Both the position numbers and the translations under genes were made by a program. The notes beneath the pieces are model-generated. The model saw nothing but the letters and a program-made list of their open reading frames with translations. It was not told the origin of the DNA and made no database searches. 64,000 nt of DNA from an uncultured Bacteroidales bacterium (GTDB taxonomy: Bacteria; Bacteroidota; Bacteroidia; Bacteroidales; Paludibacteraceae), in the NCBI GenBank assembly GCA_902762355.1, contig CACWNR010000005.1, positions 1 through 64,000 of the forward strand. Reading direction: 5' to 3'. Below, in pieces: positions 51,493-61,125 of this stretch. Within the stretch, counting starts at the first letter, position 1. Every line of letters begins with the position of its first letter.

Positions 51493-52944
51493 TTACTTTA
51501 CGATTGCACCCTGTGCATTGTAGATAACGCCGTTCTTCTCGATCATCAACTGACCGTTCTGGAAGAACTTCACAGCCTTTACTGCTGCATCGGTGTTCTC
51601 GATAGCGGTCTCGCCACCTTCTGCACAACCGGAAACGATAATGTGCTCAATGATAGCAGAGTTGCTACGTGCAAGAATAAATGCATTGTTGCCTGCCAGA
51701 CCGTCGCCTTCAACTACATCATAGGTGAAGATTTTCTCCATGACAGCCTCTGATTCTTCGGTCGGTTTCGGTGCCCAAACAGCAGCTAATTTCGTTTTCT
51801 TTGATAAGTTCTGCAGGGCGAAGCCGCGTTCCTTCTCGTCTGCCATAGCAGCATAAATCTTGAGTTCGATGGTAGAACCAGCCTCTAACGCTCTGTCCAA
51901 GATAACGCGAACGGAGTCTGCGCCACCTTTGCACATTTGCAATCCATAATCGGTGTACAGGAAGGATTCTACATAGTTGTCACTTTTCGCACCAGCAAAA
52001 ATCATGCTACCACCATAACTTGCTTCTGTCAAAGCAACCTCTGCATGGAACGCAGGTTCCGGACCGGATGTTGCTGGATAGAGTTCTGCGCAAACAGTTG
52101 CAGCCGGCTTAACACTTGCTACAAGTGCAATTGCCTCAGAAGCAACCCAATCAGTGTTGTTAGCGTTCTTTGCTTTGCAAACGATATTGAAAGTACCCTC
52201 AGCCTCCGGAGTAAACTCGAAGTTCTTGGTCTCTGCACCTTCTTGCTCTACATCGTTAACGAACCACTTGTATTCGTCAGCTTTTACATCGGTAGTAGCG
52301 GCGTAAGCAGCAGCCTTACCTACATAAACAGCCTCCGGACCATCAATAACTACAGAAGTAACAGGGTTGGATACAGGAACTGCTCCACCAATTTTGATAG
52401 CATATACGTAAACAGAGTTGTTGCAGGAAATGTATCCTAAACCTGCGGTGCCTTCATATCCATTTGCAATGTGATCGATATCCTCTGCTGTAAGTGCAGG
52501 GAGAACAGATGCATAAACAGTCTTTGCTACCGGAGTTACTGGGTCGCTGTCATATAATTTGGTTCCTTTTGCGGCTTGATGAGCGTAGGATAAGGTGATT
52601 GTTGATGTGGTGGTGTTGGTGGCAAACCAATATACGGTAATTACATCTCCTTCTGCCAAATTTTTAATAGTGGAACGCTTTGTGGTGGCAAGTTTAGCAC
52701 CAAGGTCACCGGTACCATTCATTTTAAAATAGTTAGCAGCGGTTTGTGTGCCGGTCGGGAAACCGGGCTCCATCTCTTCGTCAGGGAAAATCACGCTGGA
52801 TTGGCTGCTAGCGGCATTGTCAGGACCAGTAACAATCCAATTACCATCATTGATGACTTGAGCCTGCTCTGTAAAAACATTTACGCCGGCCATCATTGCT
52901 ACGCTTGCCAGAATGGCAGCTGCGAATGTGAATAATTTTTTCAT
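51493..52944 (-). CDS. Secreted beta-sandwich protein with C-terminal motif
   Basis: A 483-residue exported protein, signal peptide MKKLFTFAAAILASVAMMAG. Residues about 20-190 look like a jelly-roll (YFKMNGTGDLGAKLATTKRS, GLGYISCNNSVYVYAIKIGG). Residues 195-285 are an Ig/PKD-like domain (PEAVYVGKAAAYAATTDVKA, YKWFVNDVEQEGAETKNFEF). A second beta-sandwich follows, then the motif FFQNGQLMIEKNGVIYNAQG-AIVK. The last 84 bp differ at only about four positions from those of the next gene. No enzyme motif is visible; carbohydrate binding is possible. It leads the acetylesterase operon. Confidence 0.72.
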   Translation of the reverse strand: MKKLFTFAAAILASVAMMAGVNVFTEQAQVINDGNWIVTGPDNAASSQSSVIFPDEEMEPGFPTGTQTAANYFKMNGTGDLGAKLATTKRSTIKNLAEGDVITVYWFATNTTTSTITLSYAHQAAKGTKLYDSDPVTPVAKTVYASVLPALTAEDIDHIANGYEGTAGLGYISCNNSVYVYAIKIGGAVPVSNPVTSVVIDGPEAVYVGKAAAYAATTDVKADEYKWFVNDVEQEGAETKNFEFTPEAEGTFNIVCKAKNANNTDWVASEAIALVASVKPAATVCAELYPATSGPEPAFHAEVALTEASYGGSMIFAGAKSDNYVESFLYTDYGLQMCKGGADSVRVILDRALEAGSTIELKIYAAMADEKERGFALQNLSKKTKLAAVWAPKPTEESEAVMEKIFTYDVVEGDGLAGNNAFILARSNSAIIEHIIVSGCAEGGETAIENTDAAVKAVKFFQNGQLMIEKNGVIYNAQGAIVK

Positions 52945-53255: not shown

Positions 53256-53287
53256 CTTGTATATTTCAAATATTTGTTGTACCTTTG
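53256..53287 (+). promoter_or_regulatory. Promoter of the small secreted protein/S26 peptidase/PqqD operon
   Basis: CTTG (53256-53259), 20-nt spacer, TACCTTTG (53280-53287); leader of about 13-15 nt to the ATG. Confidence 0.78.
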
Positions 53288-53306
53288 CAGAAATTTTGTG
53301 AGACCT

Positions 53307-53831
53307 ATGAATCGCATCTTTTCATATATCCTGATTTCTGCCCTGCTGACCACCGCATCAGCCTCTTTCGCTACAGATGTTCCCCATAATTTCGGCATCA
53401 AAATAGCGGACAATACGCTGACCCGCTCCAATGCTAACAAAGTAGGCAGAACGGACGACGGACTCGTTTATACCTGTCGCGGAAATGCTATATTTAGATA
53501 TGTGGATTCTCCGGGATATATGTGCCTTCGCCTGCCTAACGGGACAGGTGATTCCGTTATTATTTCTCCTCCGTTAACGAAACTCTCAGAATTGAAAATT
53601 TATCCGTACTCTCATACAGCAAAAGTAGTAGATGTCAAAGTCGCTATCTCAACGGATGGGGCCACATGGAGAGAAGACCTTGTTACAATGGATTATTCGA
53701 ATAGTACTTTTGTTAGGGCGACCATTCCCGTCCGGGCGTACTATCTCAAAATATATGCAGTCAGGAGCACGGATATCCTAAGTATAACTTATACGTATCT
53801 GGACTGTAACTGTTTCTCCGTCACGCCTTAA
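53307..53831 (+). CDS. Small secreted beta-rich protein of unknown function
   Basis: 174 residues with a signal peptide (IFSYILISALLTTASASFA). The mature part looks like a single beta-sandwich: YTCRGNAIFRYVDSPGYMCL, ISPPLTKLSELKIYPYSHTA, VDVKVAISTDGATWREDLV, YYLKIYAVRSTDILSITYTY, ending LDCNCFSVTP. It lacks the C-terminal motif carried by other secreted proteins here. The ATG after the promoter was chosen; an upstream TTG would sit on the -7 box. Its TAA overlaps the ATG of the S26 peptidase, so the two are coupled, which suggests a possible substrate or partner. Confidence 0.7.
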   Translation: MNRIFSYILISALLTTASASFATDVPHNFGIKIADNTLTRSNANKVGRTDDGLVYTCRGNAIFRYVDSPGYMCLRLPNGTGDSVIISPPLTKLSELKIYPYSHTAKVVDVKVAISTDGATWREDLVTMDYSNSTFVRATIPVRAYYLKIYAVRSTDILSITYTYLDCNCFSVTP

Positions 53832-54289
53832 TGAAGATTGCGAACGACATATTGATTCCTGAGTTGGCGCGACTTTTGGCCGAAGGCAAAGAGGTTCGTT
53901 TTACCCCTTCCGGCGTGAGTATGCGGCCGTTCATAGAAGGTGACCGGGATAGTGTCATTCTTAAGGCACTCACACGCCCGCCTCGCCTCGGAGACATCCT
54001 CTTGGCGCAGACCCAAACGCTATGCGGACAAACGACGTACGTTCTCCATCGTCTCATTCGCATTGAAGGCGATACGTACGTTCTCCAAGGCGACGGAAAC
54101 CTTGCCGGCGAAGAGCGTTGTGTCCTCGGCGACATCATTGGCCGCGTCACACGCATTGAGACTCCGTCTGGCCGCCGTAAACCCCTCACTCGCGGCTATT
54201 TATGGCACTTACTTAAACCCGTCCGCAACTATCTCTTAAAGCTCTATCGTCATTCCATTTTGAAATTATATAAAAATGAGAACAATTGA
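53831..54289 (+). CDS. ER-type (S26B) signal-peptidase-like serine peptidase
   Basis: 152 residues. The Ser motif is PSGVSMRPFIEGD with S30; GDILLAQ lies at 54-60; YVLHRLIRIEGD places a His (H73) where bacterial type I peptidases have Lys, as in SipW and eukaryotic-type enzymes; VLQGDGN (84-90) and LGDIIGRV complete the fold. There is no N-terminal membrane anchor, only an amphipathic basic C-terminus (WHLLKPVRNYLLKLYRHS). Annotated relatives are called S24/S26 peptidases and often lie beside PqqD genes in Bacteroidales. It overlaps both neighbours (1 and 14 nt). Cleavage of a dedicated peptide is inferred. Confidence 0.8.
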   Translation: MKIANDILIPELARLLAEGKEVRFTPSGVSMRPFIEGDRDSVILKALTRPPRLGDILLAQTQTLCGQTTYVLHRLIRIEGDTYVLQGDGNLAGEERCVLGDIIGRVTRIETPSGRRKPLTRGYLWHLLKPVRNYLLKLYRHSILKLYKNENN

Positions 54290-54810: not shown

Positions 54811-57800
54811 ATGAAAAAGATTTACATGTTACATAAATCAACCGATAAGGGTACGGTAAACATAGGGATAAAGTCTAGGATTCCTACGATAAACACCCGT
54901 ATTTGGTCTGTCATTGCCCCGATGCTTTTTGTAGTGTTTGGGCTTTTTGGCGTAAATGAGAGTGCGTGGGGAGCAGGAAATACATGGACAGTTCGAGTTG
55001 GTGTCGGAACTGGTTCTGTTGGACGCGGAGAGGCTTATGCTCAGATATATAGCGATGCTGTAGTTGGCGGTGGTGTACAGGTAACAACAACTACTGCCAC
55101 AACAACGACTCTAGAGACTGAGTCTTGGACATCGTCTTTGACTTCTACTAAGGCGCATTGTATCTATACAGCCACTGCTTATGCAGGCTATCATTTTGCG
55201 GCATGGTATACTAATGCGGAGTGTAATAGCGGGGAGAAAACTGGCTCTACATATACTGGTACATCTGAAGGTGGAGGTCCAGGGAAACATTGGGAGGGAA
55301 TCATAAGGGTTCTTGATGCAACTGATATTACCTATACATATTATGCAAAATTTGATGCGAATACATACTCCGTTAAGTTTCATGCGAATGGAGGAACCGG
55401 TTCTGATGTTACTCAGACCGGATTCACCTATGGTACTTTGAAAAGTCTAAGGGCAAACACTTTCACAAAAACAGGATATACATTTGCAGGTTGGGCTGTG
55501 ACAAGCGACGGTGATGTTACGTACTCTGATAAGCAACAAGTTTCCATTGCAACCACAACAAATGGTGCGACAGTGGATTTGTTCGCTAAATGGACGGCAA
55601 ATCAATACGATGTTACCCTGAATGCGAACGGCGGAAGTAGTAGTGATCAGACGGTTCTGGCTACCTTTGATGCCGCAATGCCCACTACGCTCAAAGCTGG
55701 AGGTGCTATAGCTACTCCTGAAAGAACCGACTATACGTTTGTGGGTTATTTTGATGCTCAGACGGGCGGTACTAAGTATTACAATGCGGACCTGACTTCC
55801 GCACGCACGTGGAACTATGCATCCAATAAGACTTTGTACGCACACTGGGAGGCAACCTATTACGGACGTGCCGAATCGTATTCCAACCCGGCCGTGGCTG
55901 GTGGCACTTGGGTAAGTTGCAACGGCAATAAGCCAAGCAAACCGGAAGATTACAAGGCTCAGGATTATTCCAACTGGCAATCGGCTACGATACTGGCTGC
56001 TGCTCCTACGTGTAGCGCATATTTCGAGGAATCACAAGCCGATGGATATAAGTTCATGGGTTGGTACACCGGTGCTAACGGAACAGGAGAACTAAAGAGC
56101 AGTGCCGTTTCTTATACCGAAGAATTTACAGTGACCGCTGTAAACATGAATCCTCGCACAACGATTACTCGTTACGCATATTTCGTGCCGGTAACCGTGA
56201 ATTCGGTTAGTCCGGCGACTACTACTTTGACCTTTACTCAACCGGAGACGAAGTCCGTTACGTTGACCTTCGGTGTATCGAACGCAGACGAGGCAGCAGA
56301 CTTTAATGAGCCGGTTATAAGCAATACCGCCGATTGGTCGTTGACCTCTTGGTCGTACGCCAATAATCAAGTGACGGTAGTTGTTGCGATGACCGTAACC
56401 GGCAATGTGACTGCCTCGGGCGACCACAACACCACTGTTACCCTGACCTCCAAAGGAACGTCTGACAACCAGTCGAAGTCGGCTACGATTAACGCAACGG
56501 TAAACATGGATCCGGTGATTACATGTACTATCGGCGATAATTACATGGTGGACGCTCCGGCTTTGGACTTGAATACCTTGTGGACCAGTACCAGCAACGG
56601 AACAAAGACTTATTCGGTAGTTTCTTTCACTCCGGCTAATAGCAACGACGTTGCAACCGCTCCTGCAGTAAATGGTAATTCGTTGAGTTTGAGCCAAGCA
56701 GGTATAGTAGTACTGAAATTGGTACAAACTGTTTCGACTAGCTACAATGCCGCTGAGGCTACCAAGACAATTACTATACATAAATATAATAGTACGTACG
56801 CGGGCGTAGAGGATTTGGATGTGAAAGTAGATGAGAATGTTGTTTCCGGTTATACGTTGACCTATGTGAAGCCTAATGAGGCTTATATCGGCGAAGATAA
56901 TATCGCCGCAGGCGTTCCGACACTGGGCGAGAACTCTGGTAACTTCTACTATACCTTGACGAATAATGTTACCACCTCAGTAACAGCGGAGAGTCCCGAT
57001 CCATCTTTGGCTATTTCCTATGTGCCCGCAACAAAGACAGCAACAGGAAAGAACCAAGGTACGGGTACGATTGTAATCACGCAAAAAGAGACCTACAAGT
57101 ACAAAGCGTCTGCAACTACATTTGTCGTACGCGTTTCGAAGCACTCCAATGTGTTTACCAATAACTGGGGTGATTGGACGAAAGACATGAATAAGAACGC
57201 AAGTAGTGACATCTCATTAACAGCGAATAATACGAATTATACTGCGTACCCGATTCAAATAACGCAGACATACGGTGAGGAAGTAGCAACAATAACCAGT
57301 AATAACGCTACTTCAAAGACTGTTACTACTAATTCGACAAACGGTTATTCTACTTGGTATATCTACCAAGCTGCTAACTACAAGTACAATGCTGCCGAGG
57401 CAGACTTGATGGTTACTGTAGGCGTGCCAGCTCCTCCTGTTTGCTACGTGGTAGAGGATTACAACACATACTCTTTTTCTACCGCGATTAATGACTGGGA
57501 AGGTCACTTTGATACACCCATTGCTATCAATGCGCCGGTAGATAAGATTTGGTTTACGGCTACCCGTCAATGGGGCGGATACGACTATTTCGTGGTAGAA
57601 TATACCGTAGATAACGGTTCTCACTGGCGTACGATAGTAGATAACCCCGGATTGAGTTATAATGATAAAGATTTCGGTCCGTATTCATTCCAAGGCTTGC
57701 AGAGCAATGAGAAAGTGACGCATATCCGTTTCGGTGCTAAGCAAGGTGCTACTCTGACCAAATGGTACAAGAATATCAAAGTTTCTCGTAAGGCATACCT

Positions 57801-60800
57801 GAATACCCAGGACGCTTCGCACAATAATATATCGACGCTGGCAATGCCGAGCAACACAATCGGTAATAGTGTTCAGGCTAAATTCTATGTGGATTATAGC
57901 ACGTGTGCCGATGAGATTCTGTTGGAGTCGAATAATGAGCACTTTACGCTGAGTAAGACGAACTTCACGGCAAATGGTGACAACCGCGACTCCCAGAAAG
58001 AGGAAATCGTTGTTACGTATACCAACAATACGGTCAGCAAAGATACAGCTATTATCTCCATTTATACCGGCTATCAACGTCGCGTATTACGTGTAACGGC
58101 GGAAACAAACAGACGTGTACAGACCCTCACCTGGCAGGAAGGCTTTGACTCCGATCCGATTACTGTTCCCGTTGGTCTGACGGTGGATAATACTCACGAA
58201 GCCGTTTTGGCGTCCAGCACGAACATGGTTAAGTATACTTCCGGTGATGAGGAGATTATTCAGATAATTAATGGTGGTTATGGTTTCCAAGTCTTAAAAG
58301 CAGGTACTACCACGATTACGGCTTCCGAGGACGGAAACAATACTTGGTCGCCTGTAAGCGAAACGAAGACAATCATCGCAACCGATAAGATTATTCAGGA
58401 AATCAGCTGGCAACAGACCCTGCCTCTCCGAATGGAAATAGGTGATGAGATTGCGTTGGAGGCTTCTGTTTATCTACGTAATACCTCCACAGGAGAGAAG
58501 ACCTACTCGGCTGCGCGTACTGCAGAACTCACCTATTCGTGCCCGATTAACAATGTTCTCTCGTTGGATGGCAATACCATTACCATTATCGGTTACGGTT
58601 CTACAACTATTACCGCAAGTGTAAATGGTAATGAGGACTATGAGCCTGCTGCTTCCGTAACGCTGACCGTAATCGTACGCGCACCTTCAACCGGTTGCGA
58701 GACTCCGCTGACGTACTATCAGAGCGAGGCTATAGAGCTCTTCTTGTTCGATTTCAGTTTTACAGACTGGGAGACTCCGCAACTTACTTCGGACGTGATA
58801 TACTTCGACCAGGCTAACGGTAAACCGGACAAATTGTCCTTCCAGCATAGTGGAGCTTCCTATACGGCGCTGAGTAGAGAATTCTACGGCGGTACTATAT
58901 TGGTTGAGGAGCATGTGAATAACGGATGGGTTGAAGTCGCTAATTCACGTATTCAGCCTACGAAAAACGCTTGGAATAGATTAGAGAACCTCCAGTTGAA
59001 TGAAAACGCAGATGCGATTCGTTTCATTCGTATAGCAGGTGGTACGGGATATCATTATATCAAAGACATCCAAGTAACGAAGCGTCAGTATCTGCGTACT
59101 GCCGAGACGGTCATTAACTTAGGCGATGTGAAAGTAGGTGAGCATCGTAAGGATACTATCGGCTTTGATTATTCCGATTTGAAAGGTGACGTGAACGCTA
59201 TACAATTGGCCGATAATAATTGGATGATGATAGCGAATAGTGGTGTAGTCGATATTACTTGTGGTAGCCACGGACATTACGACTTGCCTATCGTGTTTGC
59301 GCCTCAACAGGCCGGCGAATGGAAAGATACCATCGTTGTTGTCGATGAACTTACCCATTTGGAGATTCGTGTTCCGATGGAGGCGAACGTGCTCCAAGCA
59401 GATAGATTTATTTATACTACAGAAGGAGATTGGGGCGAAGATTCGAACTGGAGTACCGGTGCTGTTCCCGGTCCGAATGCGGATGTTACCATCAACGCCA
59501 ATGTAACTATTGTCGGAAATGTGACAGTCAATAGTTTGGCTATCGCTCAAGGCGCAACTGTAACCGTTACGAACGGTAATACGCTTTCTATCGGTTCCGG
59601 TAGCCCGCAAGAATTGCCTGCCTATGGTAATCTCTTCGTTAAGAATGGTGGTGAAGTGAATGTTGACGGTATGCTTAGAGTGAGCGACCTGACGGTGGAA
59701 ACTTCTATCGGTACTTCTAATGGAACCGGTAAGAGCGGACAGATTGCCCAAGCGGATCATATCGCTTATACGAATGCGTATATTGAGATTAACATGGACC
59801 CGACGGGAACGATGAACGATTCCAAGTGGTACGCTTTCACGGTTCCGTTTACGGTTGATGTGAATAATGGTGTTTCCCGCAAGGAAGGCAAAGTATACCG
59901 TAACTGCGTATATGGTACGCATTATAAGATTTGTGAGTACGACGCAGATAAACGTCTCACTACCGGTAAGGGCTGGAAATATATTACTACTTCTCACCTC
60001 AACCCCGGACAGTTCTATTACTTCACGGTGAACGGTTCTTATAATACGTATCGTTTCAAAGCTGCCGGAAATAGTTATAGCGCTGTTACGGAGAAATCGC
60101 TGATTACGAATGGTACGGGTTCGGATGCTAACTGGAATGGTGTAGGTAACTCCACCTTACAGTACGCAAAAGCCTCTTATTCCGGAAGTGGATATGTACA
60201 AGTATACCAGAATGGTCTCGATGCATATAAGACTGTTCCTACCAGCTCTACTACCTTTGTTGTCGGATGCCCGTTCTTTATCCAGGCTTCTACTGCATCT
60301 ACTTTGACCCTCAATCATCCGTCGGAAGGTGTTACCGCTTATTACGCACCGCGTCGTGAGCAGGCTTCGGAGAATGAAGCTGTTTGCATTAACTTTAGCG
60401 CGGTTGACGGTGATTATATGGATCCGATTTACGTTTCGGCTTCGGATAAAGAGGAGGATGCCTATATGCTTGGTCATGATTTGTCGAAAGCAGGCGAGAG
60501 TAAGATGATTCCGCAATTGTGGGTAAATGCGTATGGTAAAAAGCTGAGTGTACATGAAATGGCTTGGCAAGGCAATAATGCATATTGTACATTGGGTCTG
60601 TATGTACCTGCTAATGGCGAGTATGTTCTTTCTGCTGCTCAGCCGGAGGATGATACCAAGATTTATCTTACGATGGATGGTCAGCCTGTTTGGGATCTCA
60701 CTATGACGGATTATACCTTTACGTTATCGAAGGGAACAACTGGTTCTTACGGTCTGATGATAGTGAAAGCTCCGGCGATAACTACCGGTGTAGAACAAGC

Positions 60801-60903
60801 ACAAGCAGACAATGTACAAGAGTCCAAACTAATCATCAATGGTACCTTGTTCATCCTCCGCAATGGTGAAATGTTTGACGCAGTAGGTAGAAAAGTTAAA
60901 TAA
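54811..60903 (+). CDS. Large repeat surface protein with C-terminal motif
   Basis: 2030 residues. The signal sequence is unusually long: about 30 polar and basic residues, then IWSVIAPMLFVVFGLFGV and a cut near AWGAG. Residues about 185-350 hold Listeria-Bacteroides/InlB B-type repeats (YSVKFHANGGTGSD, GYTFAGWAVTS, YDVTLNANGGSSSD, LYAHWEA). Ig-like and choice-of-anchor-like domains follow (SVSPATTTLTFTQPETKSVT), two jelly-roll-like blocks around 890-990 and 1310-1400, and a short right-handed beta-helix-like stretch (about 1545-1620, ADVTINANVTIVGNVTVNSL). It ends with NGTLFILRNGEMFDAVGRK and VK. Probably a surface or outer-membrane-attached adhesin; no enzyme motif was seen. Confidence 0.82.
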   Translation: MKKIYMLHKSTDKGTVNIGIKSRIPTINTRIWSVIAPMLFVVFGLFGVNESAWGAGNTWTVRVGVGTGSVGRGEAYAQIYSDAVVGGGVQVTTTTATTTTLETESWTSSLTSTKAHCIYTATAYAGYHFAAWYTNAECNSGEKTGSTYTGTSEGGGPGKHWEGIIRVLDATDITYTYYAKFDANTYSVKFHANGGTGSDVTQTGFTYGTLKSLRANTFTKTGYTFAGWAVTSDGDVTYSDKQQVSIATTTNGATVDLFAKWTANQYDVTLNANGGSSSDQTVLATFDAAMPTTLKAGGAIATPERTDYTFVGYFDAQTGGTKYYNADLTSARTWNYASNKTLYAHWEATYYGRAESYSNPAVAGGTWVSCNGNKPSKPEDYKAQDYSNWQSATILAAAPTCSAYFEESQADGYKFMGWYTGANGTGELKSSAVSYTEEFTVTAVNMNPRTTITRYAYFVPVTVNSVSPATTTLTFTQPETKSVTLTFGVSNADEAADFNEPVISNTADWSLTSWSYANNQVTVVVAMTVTGNVTASGDHNTTVTLTSKGTSDNQSKSATINATVNMDPVITCTIGDNYMVDAPALDLNTLWTSTSNGTKTYSVVSFTPANSNDVATAPAVNGNSLSLSQAGIVVLKLVQTVSTSYNAAEATKTITIHKYNSTYAGVEDLDVKVDENVVSGYTLTYVKPNEAYIGEDNIAAGVPTLGENSGNFYYTLTNNVTTSVTAESPDPSLAISYVPATKTATGKNQGTGTIVITQKETYKYKASATTFVVRVSKHSNVFTNNWGDWTKDMNKNASSDISLTANNTNYTAYPIQITQTYGEEVATITSNNATSKTVTTNSTNGYSTWYIYQAANYKYNAAEADLMVTVGVPAPPVCYVVEDYNTYSFSTAINDWEGHFDTPIAINAPVDKIWFTATRQWGGYDYFVVEYTVDNGSHWRTIVDNPGLSYNDKDFGPYSFQGLQSNEKVTHIRFGAKQGATLTKWYKNIKVSRKAYLNTQDASHNNISTLAMPSNTIGNSVQAKFYVDYSTCADEILLESNNEHFTLSKTNFTANGDNRDSQKEEIVVTYTNNTVSKDTAIISIYTGYQRRVLRVTAETNRRVQTLTWQEGFDSDPITVPVGLTVDNTHEAVLASSTNMVKYTSGDEEIIQIINGGYGFQVLKAGTTTITASEDGNNTWSPVSETKTIIATDKIIQEISWQQTLPLRMEIGDEIALEASVYLRNTSTGEKTYSAARTAELTYSCPINNVLSLDGNTITIIGYGSTTITASVNGNEDYEPAASVTLTVIVRAPSTGCETPLTYYQSEAIELFLFDFSFTDWETPQLTSDVIYFDQANGKPDKLSFQHSGASYTALSREFYGGTILVEEHVNNGWVEVANSRIQPTKNAWNRLENLQLNENADAIRFIRIAGGTGYHYIKDIQVTKRQYLRTAETVINLGDVKVGEHRKDTIGFDYSDLKGDVNAIQLADNNWMMIANSGVVDITCGSHGHYDLPIVFAPQQAGEWKDTIVVVDELTHLEIRVPMEANVLQADRFIYTTEGDWGEDSNWSTGAVPGPNADVTINANVTIVGNVTVNSLAIAQGATVTVTNGNTLSIGSGSPQELPAYGNLFVKNGGEVNVDGMLRVSDLTVETSIGTSNGTGKSGQIAQADHIAYTNAYIEINMDPTGTMNDSKWYAFTVPFTVDVNNGVSRKEGKVYRNCVYGTHYKICEYDADKRLTTGKGWKYITTSHLNPGQFYYFTVNGSYNTYRFKAAGNSYSAVTEKSLITNGTGSDANWNGVGNSTLQYAKASYSGSGYVQVYQNGLDAYKTVPTSSTTFVVGCPFFIQASTASTLTLNHPSEGVTAYYAPRREQASENEAVCINFSAVDGDYMDPIYVSASDKEEDAYMLGHDLSKAGESKMIPQLWVNAYGKKLSVHEMAWQGNNAYCTLGLYVPANGEYVLSAAQPEDDTKIYLTMDGQPVWDLTMTDYTFTLSKGTTGSYGLMIVKAPAITTGVEQAQADNVQESKLIINGTLFILRNGEMFDAVGRKVK

Positions 60904-60916
60904 TTATACGAAATTG

Positions 60917-60948
60917 TTTGGTCGTTTCAAAAAAATGTAGTACCTTTG
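60917..60948 (+). promoter_or_regulatory. Promoter of the 45-codon peptide gene
   Basis: TTTG (60917-60920), 20-nt spacer, TACCTTTG (60941-60948). The transcript would start near GCCGTTTTTGAGTCAA and have a leader of about 35 nt. Confidence 0.8.
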
Positions 60949-60987: not shown

Positions 60988-61125
60988 ATGCAACAGGAAC
61001 GCAAATATATTACCCCCTCATCAAGTATCGAGCCTTGGCTTGGTAAAGAATGTTGGATGATGGCCGGTGATTCGGGATGGGTTGAGCCTACAAGTGCTCC
61101 TCCTCGTCGTGATCCGGCTTTCTAA
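60988..61125 (+). CDS. Small peptide of the KYITP...AG-S-G type, possible peptide precursor
   Basis: A 45-residue product with its own promoter and an AAAAGAA purine stretch before the ATG. It opens MQQERKYITPSSSIEPW, continues LGKECWMMAGDSGWVEP and ends TSAPPRRDPAF. The N-terminal YIxP and the central hydrophobic-AG-(D)-SG step resemble a family of short Bacteroidales peptides (MKKxYxxP...LAGSG...) of unknown role; this is from memory, not a search. No signal peptide. It may be a substrate of the PqqD-like protein and S26B peptidase encoded 6.4 kb upstream, or an unrelated small protein. Its TAA touches the convergent DUF4861 stop. Confidence 0.65.
   Translation: MQQERKYITPSSSIEPWLGKECWMMAGDSGWVEPTSAPPRRDPAF

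Follow-up and report, generated by a model that had tools for sequence, protein, structure and literature searches.

Gene arrangement around the peptide gene

We analysed a window of 64,000 nt from an uncultured Paludibacteraceae bacterium (contig CACWNR010000005.1, assembly GCA_902762355.1; source genome 75.9% complete), in which a small reading frame lies directly behind the gene of a giant surface protein and downstream of genes for an S26B-type peptidase and a PqqD-family protein. The features of this row are the following:

53274–53831, + strand: protein that looks exported and ends CNCFSVTP, weakly matching F5/8 type C below the Pfam cut-off; abuts the S26B gene
53831–54289, + strand: S26B-type serine peptidase, assigned from its Ser/His/Asp residues
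54276–54557, + strand: PqqD-family discrete RRE (PF05402, 5.8e-14); overlaps the S26B gene by 14 nt
54811–60903, + strand: giant surface protein of 2030 aa with Listeria-Bacteroides repeats and a C-terminal tail
59422–60900, + strand: C-terminal part of the giant protein, comprising partner domain and tail, from comparison of paired and unpaired tail proteins
60346–60357, + strand: APRR, which represents the AP-x-R conserved in the partner domain and recurring in the peptide C-terminus
60917–60948, + strand: sigma-ABfr-type promoter TTTG-N20-TACCTTTG, from a motif match to the published consensus
60988–61125, + strand: YxxP peptide gene, putative precursor of 45 aa, ATG to TAA
61006–61017, + strand: YITP, the YxxP leader motif by motif match, residues 7–10
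61063–61074, + strand: A-G-D-S, residues 26–29, a small-residue region in which many relatives have A-x-S; possible cleavage zone
61096–61122, + strand: conserved C-terminus APPRRDPAF, with a C-terminal F in 36/37 linked relatives

The reading frame encodes MQQERKYITPSSSIEPWLGKECWMMAGDSGWVEPTSAPPRRDPAF and is flanked by the surface-protein gene on one side and by a convergent DUF4861 gene on the other. Its promoter consists of TTTG at 60917–60920, a spacer of 20 nt and TACCTTTG at 60941–60948, leaving 39 nt to the ATG of the peptide, and coincides with the sigma-ABfr consensus as given in the available excerpts of PMC7366714. Coordinates and consensus bear out the preliminary description of a 45-codon ORF with this promoter beside a surface-protein gene, as well as its placement of PqqD and S26B-like genes some 6.4 kb upstream in the same orientation. 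Of the purine-rich ribosome site that it also described, an A-rich stretch is present and no more than that; an A-rich stretch before the ATG tells little in Bacteroidota.

With a spacer of 17–23 nt permitted, the promoter pattern precedes 29 of the 37 relatives linked to pqqD genes, compared with 114 of 7400 random windows from the same loci, and the spacer is 20 nt in all 29. The gap between promoter and ATG amounts to 8–10 nt in 12 of these 29, which would suit nearly leaderless messages. Over 11 related ORF pairs, which share sequences and are not independent, pooled pS is 0.40 and pooled pN 0.19. Taken together, the promoter pattern and the substitution figures indicate more than chance. 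The window peptide matched no family in Pfam, NCBIfam or PHROGs.

A YxxP peptide family and its linkage to S26B and PqqD genes

Judged by profile searches, the peptide gene is a member of a large, unnamed, multi-copy family in gut Paludibacteraceae, and the term 'orphan' used in the preliminary description has to be given up. A search with the single sequence returned marginal matches only; a three-sequence profile was required, which at E ≤ 0.5 matched in 126 of the 178 genomes of the genus. A 27-sequence profile found relatives in 75 of the 178 genomes at E ≤ 1e-5, with up to seven matches per genome. Comparison of 27 relatives with Pfam, NCBIfam and PHROGs gave chance-level matches, except that one of them weakly matches a lasso family, paeninodin (0.0082). 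Beyond the genus the RRDxF family is rare (4/247 genomes of the order at E ≤ 0.001, two of the four belonging to the genus itself).

Family members are laid out as a leader KKxYxxPxxE[IV], a middle that often contains A-x-S, and a C-terminus APxRRDxVF. Among the 37 linked peptides, 36 of which come from a comparison of positions with pqqD and one from the reading of loci, Tyr and Pro of YxxP are invariant (37/37). Lys or Arg stands three and two residues before the Tyr in 34/37 and 35/37, respectively, Glu three residues after the Pro in 29/37, and Val, Ile, Met or Leu two residues after the Pro in 24/37, a position occupied by Ser in the window peptide. Small residues are found at P+16 to P+20, and in many peptides a Ser falls at about P+17 to P+20, as part of A-x-S or similarly placed.

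This pattern of conservation bears on the reading of the product as a secreted peptide signal or antimicrobial that is freed by S26B and PqqD, with the surface protein as its receptor, store or immunity factor. Between two close relatives (L120 and L037), the leader is conserved, with two synonymous and no nonsynonymous changes, and the rest of the peptide is more variable, with four and 14, as this reading would have it. The C-terminus, which would be its variable core, is highly conserved across the linked set, however, and a scan of six proteins around the window locus revealed no transporter. We consider such a free signal or antimicrobial quite unlikely.

PqqD was found in 133 of the 178 genomes of the genus. 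We set 145 PqqD places against 150 listed places of the peptide (at least 150 matches exist) and obtained, among the matches listed, 37 pairs within 15 kb, all from one genus; about 2.2 such pairs, in either direction, would be expected by chance for a 2-Mb genome. In 36 of the 37 the peptide gene lies downstream of pqqD on the same strand, at a distance of 5.5–13.4 kb, and the exception is on the other strand. Among genomes that are at least 90% complete and at most 5% contaminated, the family occurs in 23 of 49 with PqqD and in 1 of 19 without (p = 8e-4, uncorrected for ancestry). Co-occurrence with PqqD/S26B pairs, which the preliminary description had proposed as a check, thus speaks in favour of a connection. 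Over all genomes of the genus the corresponding figures, likewise uncorrected for ancestry, are 68/133 and 7/45, and six of the seven peptide-bearing genomes that show no PqqD (7/75) are less than 90% complete.

We then read 63 loci, namely the window and 62 of the 145 PqqD loci. The 62 were chosen by peptide status, 34 with a known linked peptide and 28 without, one of which (L176) proved peptide-bearing, so proportions among the 63 loci are not frequencies. S26B is present in 62/63 and a protein like the PqqD of the window in 62/63. The gene order of the peptide loci is S26B, PqqD, none to a few genes, giant surface protein and peptide; in the window, PqqD and the giant ORF are the only genes between S26B and peptide.

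Such linkage could result from shared ancestry of a stable chromosomal stretch, with S26B and PqqD acting on other substrates, for example YxxP peptides elsewhere or the exported-looking protein with a CxCF-type end encoded before S26B. Three observations point in that direction: DUF4861/GH28 neighbours are common to 27 of the 36 peptide loci, seven loci (L154, L155, L160–L163, L166) keep S26B and PqqD with an ORF of 181–248 aa in place of the peptide, and the CxCF-type protein adjoins S26B in 34/63 loci, with a gap of −94 to 16 nt in 31 of them and 196–199 nt in three. Nine peptide loci are devoid of the DUF4861/GH28 neighbours, however, at least one of them (L137) ending with its contig, so the linkage is not merely one frozen neighbourhood. 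Together with the conservation of YxxP and a separate gene row in Butyrivibrio, described below, this makes mere co-inheritance very improbable. All linked cases being from one genus, they may represent one ancestral arrangement.

The seven replacement ORFs have a signal-like N-terminus and a hydrophobic C-terminal stretch. The CxCF-type proteins, encoded in the window and in 33 loci among L116–L177, are 167–239 aa long and often have a Cys-rich C-terminus (CNCFxYxP, CPNCF, CHCLRVV).

The S26B protein has no Pfam or NCBIfam match, and its profile gave no true match in the PDB. Its filing as S26B rests on the Ser-His-Asp pattern, with Ser30, His73 and Asp88 invariant in 21 of 21 aligned proteins. 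In its predicted fold (pLDDT 80) it resembles LexA and signal peptidases: LexA, UmuD, SpsB and the human signal peptidase complex are within the first 13 Foldseek folds, the best at E 2.6e-3 and none at E ≤ 0.001. Among its 570 relatives, the best 80 in named genomes are from Bacteroidales and Paludibacteraceae MAGs, many of ruminant source. For PqqD, TfuB1 (6jx3) is the only match of the profile in the PDB below E 0.01 (4.7e-4), and the top folds for the model (pLDDT 89) are 5v1u, 5v1v and 6jx3, which are lasso RREs with leader. In sequence and predicted fold, PqqD thus appears nearest to lasso RREs solved with their leaders. The leader motif that RREs of the lasso type bind is YxxP. A further weak match of PqqD is the 'HPr-rel-A system' of NCBIfam (TIGR04353).

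A leader-only profile matched in 9 of 247 genomes of the order, against a chance expectation of about 2.5 at the cut-off used; the match in G242, one of the nine, is interrupted by two stops. PqqD is present in 9/9 (p = 0.012) and S26B in 4/9 (p = 7e-4) or, with the own genus removed, in 7/7 (p = 0.03) and 2/7 (p = 0.04), respectively, all uncorrected for ancestry. An S26B relative with 37.7% identity is followed by a PqqD-like ORF of 89 aa in a named isolate, Prevotella sp. oral taxon 299 F0039, with no YxxP small ORF within the 24 kb read.

Pairing of the peptide with a surface-protein domain

The giant protein upstream of the peptide ends in a C-terminal tail (consensus VEKILRNGQLYILRDGKMYDATGRVVK) that has 67 matches in the genome of the window at E ≤ 10, for example at 60826–60900 and 51496–51570. 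Many of these end very long ORFs, and the tail looks like a sorting signal. For the domain that precedes the tail, residues 1538–2000, a Pfam scan of the whole protein matched the repeats only, and no PDB sequence matched.

The preliminary description missed that the peptide is paired with this domain, also where the copies lie far from PqqD. The domain is present in 31 of 31 proteins upstream of linked peptides at S26B loci. We read 60 of 114 unlinked peptide places, best-scoring first: YxxP occurs in 60/60, 50/60 end in F, and 56/60 follow a long ORF at −4 to 168 nt, with the promoter at 4/60. The partner domain is found in 56 of the 57 upstream proteins recovered at these places, compared with 3 of 99 tail-bearing proteins that are unpaired (3/74 at S26B loci, 0/25 in the own genome). 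Since most copies examined sit behind one kind of surface protein, the pairing suggests that peptide and protein work together. A sensitive domain profile detects diverged copies without a peptide in 10/74 and 4/25 of these unpaired proteins, respectively, so the pairing is with the close version of the domain and the idea of an exclusive pairing has to be softened. In the own genome, 30 of the 67 tail matches were read; five of the 30 proteins are followed by a YxxP ORF, and the close domain is present in one of the five, the protein of the window. Three of the four YxxP peptides behind the other proteins end in EQW or DQW.

Domain and peptide also have a short motif in common. We aligned 91 of the 93 domains, omitting two short ones. 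AP-x-R occupies a single place in this alignment, within a linker that is otherwise gappy (A in 83, P in 85 and R in 83 of 91), and among the 443 columns just one other window of the form XYxZ reaches 85% or more in each of its three columns. A simple pattern search finds the motif in 26/31 linked and 47/55 unlinked partners, and AP-x-R or APR is found near the end of 31/37 linked peptides. These sequence matches would fit mimicry, or a common site at which one protease or one binding partner acts. Unpaired tail proteins carry the motif in 1/74 cases at S26B loci and in 5/25 in the own genome; on account of the latter, AP-x-R was rejected as a mark of paired proteins only.

The pairing could also mean that the peptide is an unprocessed accessory of the C-terminal domain, such as a chaperone, an export helper or an inhibitor, and that S26B and PqqD are uninvolved neighbours. 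The domain pairing of copies far from pqqD, their position close behind a long ORF and the shared AP-x-R all agree with an accessory of this kind. Yet it would leave aside that all copies read have YxxP, which corresponds to the known RRE ligand, that peptide genes cluster with pqqD, and that PqqD is present in 68 of the 75 genomes with the family. We regard it as unlikely.

Relation to known systems and a proposed route of processing

The closest parallel is provided by the linear polyphosphorylated peptides (LPP RiPPs) of Bacillota, whose toolkit, according to the available parts of Popov et al. 2026 (PMC13381572), comprises S26B, an RRE and a YxxP leader; in vitro, LppB together with LppS cuts this leader off after T-1, the core (A-Q-S) is phosphorylated at Ser3, and LPP is stated to be restricted to Bacillota. 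The loci described here resemble LPP in the archaeal-type signal peptidase (S26B, Ser/His/Asp), the discrete RRE, the YxxP leader, which takes the form YxxPx[V/L] in LPP, and a Ser after the leader region. A-x-S compared with the A-Q-S of LPP is a likeness in sequence, for which we do not claim homology. In contrast to LPP, to which an HprK-like kinase and an NTP-transferase-like gene belong, neither gene is found at the 36 peptide loci (HprK-like, 0/36 in stretches no longer than 20 kb, that of the window being 13 kb; NTP transferase, 0/36 with one query protein). An MsbA-like transporter likewise belongs to LPP clusters; in the window, the interval from S26B to the peptide holds PqqD and the giant ORF only. 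The leader also continues otherwise, the full LPP motif YxxPxVLxHQxIxFET not being seen, and small residues lie at P+16 to P+20, whereas the LppA cut falls, by our count from the available text of PMC13381572, at P+12. Finally, the locus holds a giant surface protein, the C-terminus is conserved, many copies lie away from the S26B–PqqD pair and the host is one of the Bacteroidota. New here relative to the available account of LPP are the locus without a kinase, the Bacteroidota host and the surface-protein pairing.

Lasso systems share the YxxP leader and the discrete B1-type RRE fold, which includes the nearest structures, and add the weak paeninodin match. They appear to differ in their peptidase, which is of the B2 type in lasso loci and S26B-type here; a scan of six proteins around the window locus detected no cyclase, B2 peptidase, transporter or modifying enzyme. 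The S26B–PqqD–HprK cassettes of Bacteroidales, with which the HPr-rel-A system (TIGR04353) may be compared, have the S26B and PqqD families in common with the peptide loci, but the 13 of the 63 loci with an HprK-like kinase (L151–L153, L157, L167–L171, L173–L175, L177) show no linked peptide in the stretch read (0/13). Three of the 13 have an ORF of at least 1400 aa, none then followed by a peptide. The 13 loci, three of which also have an NTP-transferase-like gene, represent a type within this genus that is closer to LPP.

A separate gene row is found on the plasmid pNP243 of Butyrivibrio fibrisolvens (L434), where four genes succeed one another: an ORF that is HprK-like by eye and annotated as hypothetical, the gene of a 57-aa KKAYVKPEL peptide, directly behind it PqqD, and then an S24/S26 peptidase. 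The YxxP peptide of this row is Cys-rich.

Within the open-access literature searched, we recognised no account of S26B–PqqD–YxxP peptides in Bacteroidota in the text available. The available parts of a survey of Bacteroidales RiPPs (PMC10352776) mention PqqD only within a reference, and those of PMC12710340 and PMC7533575 describe no such system. Term searches of the available text found neither S26 nor signal peptidase in a paper on RiPP leader-removal proteases (PMC10885120) and no YxxP in that on RRE-Finder (PMC7470986).

Based on these comparisons, we propose that the peptide is probably a precursor that is bound by PqqD and relieved of its leader by S26B, and whose product acts with the partner surface protein. 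The ORF at 60988–61125 would encode a RiPP-type precursor with the N-terminal KxYxxP segment as its leader. PqqD, as a discrete RRE, would bind this leader and present the precursor to the S26B-type peptidase, which would remove the leader within the small-residue zone A-G-D-S. The remaining short linear peptide ending in APPRRDPAF would be exported and would act on or with the C-terminal domain of the surface protein from the gene immediately before its own. One S26B–PqqD pair may serve several surface-protein/peptide units per genome in trans.

We favour this precursor because of (i) the downstream placement in 36/37 pairs, (ii) YxxP in all linked and unlinked peptides read, (iii) the likeness of PqqD to lasso RREs, (iv) the Ser/His/Asp pattern, (v) the LPP precedent, (vi) the Butyrivibrio row and (vii) the counts of the partner domain in paired and unpaired proteins. 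Counted against it were the seven loci with another ORF in the same place, the 13 HprK-like loci, the seven genomes showing no PqqD, the offset of P+16 to P+20 from P+12, the lack of a modifying enzyme or transporter in the six-protein scan, the single close domain among five in the own genome and the diverged unpaired domains. The processed peptide of the preliminary description, which was taken for an orphan, is thereby supported in part, by the co-occurrence and by the YxxP/RRE/S26B precedent in Bacillota (PMC13381572, available parts). More tentatively, the product of this RiPP-like system might be a partner of surface proteins and not a free natural product: one RRE–S26B pair would mature a family of YxxP peptides, most of whose genes lie behind that of a surface protein with the partner domain, and the mature peptide would mimic the AP-x-R linker motif of the domain and thereby control folding, anchoring or cleavage.

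The loci point to an S26B/RRE/YxxP peptide system in Bacteroidota, beyond the range given for LPP by its authors, and to YxxP peptides tied to surface proteins. The unnamed YxxP small ORFs of Bacteroidales would thereby gain a processing route and a partner. One genome from another family of the order (G288) has 15 YxxP matches to the leader profile, four ORFs of which were read and have ends such as SLWGDDE; it also has S26B, PqqD and an ORF that is HprK-like by eye.
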